NCBI GenBank assembly: GCA_913063125.1
Contig: CAJXZM010000001.1
Location: forward strand, 124,001 to 188,000
Length of the DNA: 64,000 nucleotides
Direction of reading: 5' to 3'
Source: an uncultured Gammaproteobacteria bacterium
GTDB taxonomy: Bacteria; Pseudomonadota; Gammaproteobacteria; Pseudomonadales; Ketobacteraceae
Shown here: piece by piece, positions 6,430-59,284 of the stretch
Layout: the number at the start of each line of letters is the position of its first letter
How positions within the stretch are numbered: the first letter of the stretch is position 1
Translations under genes and position numbers: made by a program
The notes under the pieces: model-generated
Seen by the model: the letters and a program-made list of their open reading frames with translations, nothing else
The model's database searches: none
Told to the model about the DNA's origin: nothing

Positions 6430-6822
6430 TTAATTATTGTTAATGATTATGAACTCAATGGAGCAGGCGGTGTGTTTGGAAATGGTCAATACACGTACTC
6501 TAATACCACCGTTGTATCGCATGGTTTCAATATTCTCAAGTACCGGGCTTTTTTGTCGAAGCCATCTATACCACATGTTGATGAGATAACCAGTCGCTTC
6601 GTACATGCTTGCACCGGGTTTTAACGGTAGCGTGCATGATATTAAGCAGTTGAAATTACTTGGTTGCCGAAGTGTTTCTGATGTTTCAGCAATGAATGGT
6701 GAATTATCGTCAAACAGAACCCCGTTTATTTCATGGTCATATGCAGCAATGGTGTGATGCATATCATCAGTGATCGAAGTGAACCCATGGTCTTTGAGTA
6801 TGATGGCGTATTCAATTGACAC
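6430..6822 (-). CDS. Hypothetical protein, paralogue of the interrupted gene at 3675-4055
   Basis: This 130-residue protein of mixed alpha/beta character starts at a GTG (6820-6822) with AAGGA nine bases upstream. It shares with the interrupted gene at 3675-4055 the N-terminal HGFT, a central acidic FDD/FDS segment, a helix with W and R, and VLTISKH close to the C-terminus. The two therefore form a small family duplicated on the element. It heads the operon with the phosphoesterase and the membrane protein. No known domain is evident. Confidence 0.6.
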   Translation of the reverse strand: MSIEYAIILKDHGFTSITDDMHHTIAAYDHEINGVLFDDNSPFIAETSETLRQPSNFNCLISCTLPLKPGASMYEATGYLINMWYRWLRQKSPVLENIETMRYNGGIRVRVLTISKHTACSIEFIIINNN

Positions 6823-6895
6823 AATCGGTATTCCTTTATGTTGTGTCCAGTGCGGTGGGCGTCTGGAGCTGCCAGTATATCTAAAGCAGCCGTCC

Positions 6896-6923
6896 AGTAT
6901 AGCACGATATGCATGCGGCTCAA
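6896..6923 (-). promoter_or_regulatory. Candidate sigma-70 promoter of the phosphoesterase operon
   Basis: Reading the minus strand, TTGAGC (6923-6918) and TATACT (6901-6896) are separated by 16 bases, about 75 bases before the GTG start of the 6430-6822 gene. Position and motif quality support it. Confidence 0.45.
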
Positions 6924-9142: not shown

Positions 9143-9189
9143 GTCGGGTGTTATCGGCGTCTCCCTATTGGTTATTAAAGAGGTTCTCA

Positions 9190-10359
9190 ATGGATATACA
9201 GTTCACATCGGAAGATCTTGCTTTTCAAAAAGAGGTTCGGGCATTTTTCTCCGAAAATGTTACGGATGAAATCCGTCGTGGTTATACCGGAGGGGAGGTT
9301 GATCCTGCCATTATGGTTAAATGGCAAAAAATCTTGCATAAGCAAGGTTGGGTAGCTCCGAACTGGCCAGCGGACATTGGTGGCACCGGTTGGACAATTA
9401 CACAAAAGTATATCTTTGAAAATGAATGCGCGGAATCTGGTGCACCATCGGTGATTCCATTTGGTTTGAAAATGGTGGCTCCGGTTATTTATACGTTTGG
9501 CAGTGATGAACAGAAGAAACGCTTCTTGCCGGACATACTGGAAAGTAACGTGTGGTGGTGTCAGGGTTATTCAGAGCCTGGTGCAGGTTCTGATTTGGCT
9601 GCGTTACAAACCAAGGCAGAGCTGGATGGCGATCATTATGTGGTAAATGGTCAAAAGATTTGGACCACTTACGCTCAGGATGCTGACTGGATTTTCTGTT
9701 TAGTAAGAACCAGCTCAGAAGGTAAGCGCCAAGCAGGTATTTCATTTTTACTAATTGATATGAAAACACCTGGCGTAGAAGTGAGAAAGATTGACACCAT
9801 TGATAATCAACACACGTTGAATGAAGTGTTTTTTGATAATGTGCGGGTACCGGTTGAAAACCGCATTGGTGAGGAAAACAAAGGTTGGACGTACGCCAAA
9901 GTACTGTTAACGCATGAGCGTACAGCGATTGCCGGAGTCGCCCAGTCGAAAAAAGGCATCCAAAAGTTAAGAGAATTTGCTGCTCAGGAAAAGGTTGGAG
10001 CAGGTGTATTAGCGGATGATCCATTGTTTGCCGCTAAAATTGCAAAAGTTGAGATTGATTTGATGGCCCTGGAATATACCGAGCTGCGGGCGATTGCATC
10101 GGTATCGGCGGGTGGAGCACCCGGCCCAGAATCGTCTATCTTAAAAATTCGTGGTACTGAAATACAGCAAGCAGTATCTGAGTTAACCATCGAAGCTTGT
10201 GGCCATTACGCCCATGTTATTAACGATGGCGAGGCGATTGGCAACGATATGAGTTGGGTTGCATCGGCTAAATATTTATACGGTCGAGCCAGTACGATTT
10301 ATGGCGGTTCAAATGAAGTTCAGAAAAACATTATCGCTAAGATGGTTTTAGGGTTGTAG
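9190..10359 (+). CDS. Acyl-CoA dehydrogenase
   Basis: This flavoprotein of 389 residues should oxidise an acyl-CoA to the 2,3-enoyl-CoA in the cytoplasm, passing electrons to ETF. Family features include the central beta region (GAGSDLAALQT, QKIWTTYA), the helix with HERTAIAG and the C-terminal YGGSNEVQKNIIAK. I chose ATG 9190, which gives the usual N-terminus MDIQFTSED and has AAGAGG upstream, over a GTG at 9148. A second acyl-CoA dehydrogenase follows, and such pairs often act on branched, sterol-like or aromatic side chains, sometimes as a heteromer. The substrate is not determined. Confidence 0.93.
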   Translation: MDIQFTSEDLAFQKEVRAFFSENVTDEIRRGYTGGEVDPAIMVKWQKILHKQGWVAPNWPADIGGTGWTITQKYIFENECAESGAPSVIPFGLKMVAPVIYTFGSDEQKKRFLPDILESNVWWCQGYSEPGAGSDLAALQTKAELDGDHYVVNGQKIWTTYAQDADWIFCLVRTSSEGKRQAGISFLLIDMKTPGVEVRKIDTIDNQHTLNEVFFDNVRVPVENRIGEENKGWTYAKVLLTHERTAIAGVAQSKKGIQKLREFAAQEKVGAGVLADDPLFAAKIAKVEIDLMALEYTELRAIASVSAGGAPGPESSILKIRGTEIQQAVSELTIEACGHYAHVINDGEAIGNDMSWVASAKYLYGRASTIYGGSNEVQKNIIAKMVLGL

Positions 10360-10400
10360 GAATATTCGATTGGTGGATATTTGAATCTTGCTATCAGTGA

Positions 10401-10503
10401 AGTGTTCAGTATCCCCTTTCAGAAACGTCTGCGGCATGGAAGCCGCAGTCGAGTACGCATGGATGCGATCTTTTACGATTTATGAAAGGGGATACTGAAC
10501 ACT
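10401..10503. repeat. Structured palindromic repeat element, copy 1
   Basis: Perfect 21-bp arms at 10401-10421 and 10483-10503 enclose a 61-base core. Inside are a 7-bp hairpin (CTGCGGC 10429-10435 with GCCGCAG 10442-10448) and CGCAT-GG-ATGCG at 10456-10467. The core is closely similar to the one at 58895-59005, but the outer arms are different sequences that stay self-complementary. It lies between two same-direction genes. It may be an RNA structure, a terminator or processing element, or a small mobile repeat. Confidence 0.85.
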
Positions 10504-10566
10504 GAACGGTCTCCGGGATCTGCGAAATACCTACTCATTACATGCAATTTGAACAAGAGACATATT

Positions 10567-58894: not shown

Positions 58895-59005
58895 GTTCAT
58901 AAACCCTTATCTTCGGTCAGAAACGTCTGAGGCAAGGACGCCGAAGTCGAGCTAGCATGGATGCTGTCTTTTGCGATTTCTGACCGAAGATAAGGGTTTA
59001 TGAAC
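58895..59005. repeat. Structured palindromic repeat element, copy 2
   Basis: Perfect 29-bp arms at 58895-58923 and 58977-59005 enclose a core closely similar to the one at 10401-10503, including GTCGAG and GCATGGATGC. The outer arms differ in sequence from copy 1 but remain self-complementary. The inner AGCAT-GG-ATGCT replaces CGCAT-GG-ATGCG of copy 1, a compensatory change. It lies downstream of fleQ. Confidence 0.88.
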
Positions 59006-59026
59006 GCTTCCAGCCAAAACTACAAA

Positions 59027-59130
59027 CTCACCTCAATCAAAACTACAATCAAAAACTCACCTCAATCAAAACTACAATCAAAAACTCACCTCAATCAAAA
59101 CTATAATCAAAAACTTACCTTAACCAAAAC
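59027..59130. repeat. 29-bp tandem repeat between fleQ and fleS
   Basis: A 29-base unit starting CTCACCTCAATCAAAA is repeated at 59027, 59056 and 59085, with a fourth decayed copy at 59114. The first two units are identical and the third differs by one base. The unit is not a multiple of three, and no gene covers it. The surrounding gap (58811-59355) otherwise holds the structured repeat and the fleSR promoter. Possible roles are a binding array, a spacer or replication slippage. Confidence 0.9.
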
Positions 59131-59284
59131 AACCAGCGCATCTCAATAAAGTAACAAACCCACCTCAACAAAAACAACATATCCACTCCAATTCACATAC
59201 ATCGACTTAACTTAGTCGCCAAATCTTTGACCACTAATTTTGTTACCCCACCTAACACACTGAAAGAAAACCATAAATCAAACC

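Follow-up and report, generated by a model that had tools for sequence, protein, structure and literature searches.

Our analysis leads us to favor, with moderate confidence, the view that two palindromes in the window (the whole stretch of DNA analysed here, 64,000 nucleotides long) are copies of a dispersed, probably mobile element of the TwoAYGGAY kind, in which one arm is copied onto the other and this, together with selection, preserves the pairing of a long rod, and which offers a predicted docking site for CsrA. The known part is the core, which is a described kind of RNA; what is new is that it occurs dispersed and at high copy number, with a rod whose sequence changes freely and whose two arms keep matching each other.

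A first-pass annotation of the window had proposed that 10401-10503 and 58895-59005 share a core while their arms differ and still pair, and the arm and core coordinates bear this out. In the first copy, the left arm (10401-10422, on the + strand like all features given here) pairs with the right arm (10482-10503) over 22 bp, of which the outer 21 bp are perfectly paired, as had been claimed, and the sole slip is a G.A mismatch at the inner end, beside the core. The core itself (10423-10481, 59 nt) is conserved in the family and holds hairpin 1 (10429-10448, loop AUGGAA at 10436-10441) and hairpin 2 (10456-10467, loop AUGGAU at 10459-10464). The arms of the second copy (58895-58920 and 58980-59005) are paired at 26 of 26 bp around a core at 58921-58979 with the loops AAGGAC (58934-58939) and AUGGAU (58957-58962), and its hairpin 1 carries a tandem G.A. 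Folding energies lie 8.7 sd (first copy) and 10.9 sd (second copy) below those of shuffled sequences. Beyond the palindrome, the first copy has a left outer flank (10361-10400) that begins right after the TAG that ends the upstream gene (ORF 9148-10359), follows a weak consensus, AAATCTnGCnATAA, across 63 copies and is absent at the unoccupied site in genome G003, and a right outer flank (10504-10525, consensus GnTCTnnagATCCGCtAA) whose boundary was estimated by alignment with that same site. Between the second copy and the next gene, the window holds a short tandem array at 59010-59140 with several imperfect units of AAAACTACAATCAAAAACTCACCTCAATC.

Further copies, which the first-pass annotation had advised collecting, were found in the host genome (a 6.6-Mb draft in 311 contigs) by BLAST with each window copy; their cores are of two types, 59 and 57 nt long, and the family is present also in other species of the genus. 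The copy number in this genome rests on a search with a covariance model, R1, built from 39 copies in an alignment that includes both window copies: a manual count over the matches, with second-strand hits removed, puts the element at no fewer than 27 distinct places. R1 matches number in the tens in G001, G002 and G004 and two in G003, and two other genera of the same family also carry copies; the 10401 and 58895 copies scored 111.7 and 114.7 bits, both being among R1's source sequences. Throughout, a conserved core of 57-60 nt with two hairpins is closed by a stem whose length is 26 bp in the genus and 23-35 bp in the sister genera, and related cores were found in other gammaproteobacterial MAGs (JALSSC01, WGBK01 and JAKRWE01). 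We conclude that the element is dispersed and probably mobile. A phage or plasmid origin was rejected, as the window copy had no match in either the phage or the plasmid collection. In some copies (L038, L039, L047, L082, L083, L087, L088, L108 and L192), a separate REP-like repeat of ~36 bp (GAGCCTGCCCCGCGAGCAACGCGAGTGCATTGGGT) is inserted in one or other hairpin of the element and can point either way. Decayed copies (L022/L023 at contig ends, L018 and L081) have lost an internal part of the core, have one side replaced or no longer pair at the arms.

The identity of the core, like its CsrA-type loops, had gone unrecognized in the first-pass annotation. At the gathering threshold, Rfam reports nothing in the window; the 58895 copy reaches 41.4 bits against the TwoAYGGAY family (RF01731), 1.6 below the cut-off of 43, and the 10401 copy has no match at E<=1. 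The gathering cut-off is passed by two sibling copies, L069 (48.4 bits) and L017 (44.7 bits), and most of the siblings tested score 35-43 bits or are unlisted. The tandem G.A reported for TwoAYGGAY (PMC4333381) is present in one stem of the type-2 copies and of the 58895 copy, and was counted in 19 of the 39 aligned sequences. A poorly conserved external stem was also noted for TwoAYGGAY (PMC4333381), and this stem is the variable arm pair of the first-pass annotation. RF01731 occurs in other gammaproteobacteria as well, often with at least 6-7 copies per genome among the matches listed.

CsrA binding was proposed for TwoAYGGAY in an earlier motif survey (PMC4333381). In our copies, GGA persists in the two hairpin loops in 53/54 and 52/54 cases, with a variable preceding base; at least two ANGGA motifs are present in 130 of 136 copies and are spaced by 22-24 nt in 121/129. 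The hairpin 2 motif TACANGGATGT, found in 41/136 copies, fits the CsrA SELEX consensus RUACARGGAUGU, which lies in a hairpin (PMC4347634), and all five genomes of the genus carry a csrA gene (5/5). The loops match the CsrA/RsmA site, and on the strength of these motifs the element is probably a CsrA docking site. In other families (G213, G323, G416, G201 and G080; L228-L253), the second loop is often CGA for GGA (CACGACG next to CAGGACG), a pattern that would fit the loss of one CsrA site or its switching from copy to copy. Two copies in MAG Adamantis Mar_7 (L155 at 6820-6922 and L141 at 2048-2154) gave weak opposite-strand matches to Rfam Ysr224 (Yersinia sRNA 224) of 37.2 and 27.4 bits against a cut-off of 70, which perhaps reflect only hairpin symmetry.

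Chance is excluded as the source of the arm pairing. Among 39 copies chosen for well-paired arms, 96.5% of cells were paired, against 73.2% after shuffling and 35-44% with partners slid; without that choice, 1572 of 1638 arm pairs in 63 elements were Watson-Crick. For the inner 19 bp of the arms, the proportion is ~98% (126 copies, both sets), and since the arms differ between copies and are still Watson-Crick at this level, pairing is kept while sequence is free. In the sister genera, arms are close to random from one copy to the next (33% identity in G010) but still pair, and cores average 83% identity. A statistical check for covariation, also advised earlier, gave 346 two-sided changes versus 88 by chance in the 39 selected copies. 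Among family copies, arms are not fixed in sequence, and unpaired arms, the other pattern that the first-pass annotation had named as telling against its reading, are confined to a few decayed copies, such as L041 and L113. Its statement that inner-stem bases change in pairs is right in part: there is true covariation in hairpin 2, and hairpin 1 alternates between C-G/G-C pairs and tandem G.A (CTGCGGC/GCCGCAG versus CTGAGGC/GCCGAAG).

The pattern of substitution points to how this pairing is kept. Same-site pairs from different species of the genus showed 53 two-sided Watson-Crick changes versus 9 one-sided changes over 361 bp, some of these pairs possibly being separate insertions. We compared this with a selection-only model (weak-mutation substitution with selection on pairing, fitted to the observed mismatch level), which, at the divergence of the flanks, gives double changes at 0.4% versus 14.7% observed. 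This is a ~35-fold excess over a model in which mutation is taken to be weak and population-level tunnelling is left out. Because several same-site pairs have flank divergence of at least 0.30, within the range of unrelated copies, the count was repeated on the ten surest orthologous pairs, whose flanks are too alike for unrelated copies, and it gave 13 versus 2 over 190 bp, against a model expectation of 0.25-0.8.

This excess bears on a reading by ordinary compensatory evolution, which we regard as possible but doubtful, whereby the arms mutate independently, purifying selection acts on an RNA stem with no copying, and copies seem young only through core constraint. Consistent with it, G.U is the favored mismatch, same-site arm divergence follows outer-flank divergence (r=0.75; 0.197 versus 0.215) with the core slower (0.077), and double changes are unclustered (9 adjacent pairs versus 9.75 expected), whereas multi-base template switches would be expected to cluster them. 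However, two-sided changes stand ~35-fold above what selection alone allows at the observed mismatch level, G.U pairs, which should be common if tolerated, make up only ~1%, and transversion-type doubles, for which no G.U intermediate exists, occur as often as transitions (29:24, with 63% transitions among flank changes). Template switching is a known way in which RNA stems and inverted repeats become perfect (PMC8794818, PMC8604942), and bacterial data in which it favors transversions are cited in PMC8604942.

A second asymmetry concerns the strand. On the + strand, G.T mismatches outnumber A.C by 28:5 when outer arm positions are included (p=7e-5), and the bias recurs in copies that lie antisense to their neighbours (11:1), in the sister genera (36:11) and in the strict inner 19 bp of both sets (27:8); in the inner region of the g1 set alone it is not significant (8:4, p=0.39). 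This bias indicates that it is the + single strand that matters, as RNA or, less likely, as DNA. Together, the excess of two-sided changes and the bias of G.U over A.C point to arm-to-arm copying by template switching plus selection on one strand. Of the two interpretations offered in the first-pass annotation, selection on structure is thus supported by the paired changes, the strand-specific tolerance of G.U and the conserved GGA loops, and the 35-fold excess supports an element that copies its arms, if this is taken to mean copying from arm to arm.

A single-stranded DNA fold of one strand would be compatible with the same strand asymmetry, and a DNA-only, MITE-like mobile element, with a hairpin for transposition, GGA loops as transposase contacts and no RNA function, would also account for the dispersal, the presence and absence at orthologous sites, the two orientations and the conserved outer ends with their partial inverted symmetry. 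We consider this reading unlikely, given that the loops match the CsrA ligand consensus and that the core matches an Rfam family predicted as RNA.

The first-pass annotation had also allowed that the element acquires its arms, and this found no support. Some 20 arms of G010, queried against the genome that they come from, matched their own partner only, the best other hits being 17-mers at E=0.7; no arm 9-mer was found in an alignment of four unoccupied or decayed G008 sites (one a possible decayed remnant), and no arm sequence was seen at three other sites without the full element. With no other genomic match and no arms at these seven sites, the arms seem to travel with the element rather than being taken from the target. 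Inverted target duplication and capture of an existing hairpin were rejected, as the sites without the full element carry no arm. Arms made anew at each insertion, whether in one of these two ways from the target or by rewriting during transposition, would fit near-identical cores with unrelated arms: where cores diverge by less than 0.02, arm divergence is 0.39 in the g1 set and ~0.65 in the sister genera, whereas at the same site arms and cores diverge similarly (0.056 and 0.051, n=6). Most of this contrast between core and arm divergence is explained by strong core constraint and old copies. The arms also keep a weak consensus and show graded similarity between some copies, so that they look inherited, and together with the empty sites and the self-only matches this makes arms made anew improbable. 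The long perfect stems with private sequences might also suggest antisense guides to genomic targets, with the stem cut into siRNA-like pieces, but the same ~20 arms of G010 match only themselves in their genome, and we give this idea almost no credence.

The genomic positions speak to both mobility and function. At the 10401 site, the element is absent in G003 and the insertion starts directly after the TAG stop codon; sites without the full element in G001, G003, G004 and G008 amount to presence/absence polymorphism at orthologous positions. Alignment with the unoccupied G003 site places the element boundaries to within a few bases, and the conserved outer flanks extend the unit beyond the palindrome, to roughly 165 bp. 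Within the genus, most arms begin 30-60 bp past a stop codon, in the contexts +E+ 28, -E- 19, +E- 8 and -E+ 4; the sister genera give +E+ 12, -E- 17, +E- 13 and -E+ 3, with 19 calls that overlap a predicted ORF under rough gene calling. Divergent gene pairs are under-represented around the element. Its orientation to genes is free (+E+ 40, -E- 36 over both sets), and a sense 3'-UTR role is therefore ill-suited. An intrinsic terminator was rejected, as the consensus that follows the right arm has no T run, and so was an integron attC site, as sequence inspection revealed no array and no matching core motif. At some junctions, different species carry the element in opposite orientations (L001/L062, L002/L069, L007/L084, L008/L059 and L021/L075), which suggests strong insertion hot spots. 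Inversion in place was rejected for these sites: their outer flanks differ by 0.32-0.41, as much as those of unrelated copies, which makes repeated insertion at the same spot the likelier course.

In the mechanism that we favor, the + strand would fold into a 26-bp rod tipped by two ANGGA-loop hairpins 22-24 nt apart, a pair that may fit one CsrA/RsmA dimer. The letters of the rod are free, with pairing kept by DNA-level copying of one arm onto the other, presumably through template switching on the hairpin during replication, as the substitution pattern suggests; on top of this, selection acts against badly paired + strand folds, as the bias of G.U over A.C shows. Copies just past stop codons, in either orientation, would when transcribed provide many small CsrA docking sites. 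Their role might be that of decoys or local mRNA tags, which is the weakest step of the proposal. We also put forward, at rather low probability, a bolder version in which this is a mobile CsrA-docking RNA family with hairpin-templated synthesis as part of its propagation, so that each move rewrites the rod but spares the core, and a genome displays the same CsrA site on dozens of private, perfect rods.

If the favored mechanism is true, the dozens of independent copies in each genome, whose orthologs span a gradation of distances, would form a natural test of a question in RNA evolution, namely, whether long stems are kept via mismatched intermediates under selection or by templated copying of arms. 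It would also suggest that certain bacteria spread CsrA sites behind their genes in the form of a repeat family, and models of CsrA titration in them would have to change.

Among known systems, REP/BIME and Correia/NEMIS repeats resemble the element in being intergenic, near gene 3' ends, palindromic and present in many copies. In those repeats, stem sequence is kept between copies, whereas in our element it is the core that is kept, and the stem may vary freely in sequence. The homogenized arms, the two-sided changes without intermediates and transversions no rarer than transitions recall quasipalindrome correction and template-switch mutation (PMC8794818, PMC8604942); what differs here is that dozens of copies of one RNA element would be involved, with stems of 26-35 bp, and that the changes are unclustered. 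With the CsrA-sponge RNAs CsrB/CsrC/RsmX/Y/Z, the element shares ANGGA in hairpin loops and site pairs spaced for a CsrA dimer, but it would present many scattered single-pair units of predicted sites rather than one RNA with many sites. The element also resembles TwoAYGGAY itself (Rfam RF01731; Weinberg 2010, PMC2864571), which likewise has two hairpins with AYGGAY-type loops, a linker, a junction and an external stem that closes the structure, as well as the tandem G.A in one stem, and whose cut-off is exceeded by sibling copies. In the literature that we searched, we found no description of TwoAYGGAY as a repeat family. The window copies depart from TwoAYGGAY in scoring under its cut-off or not matching at all, and the family departs from it in that the external stem is a long rod private to each of dozens of dispersed copies.
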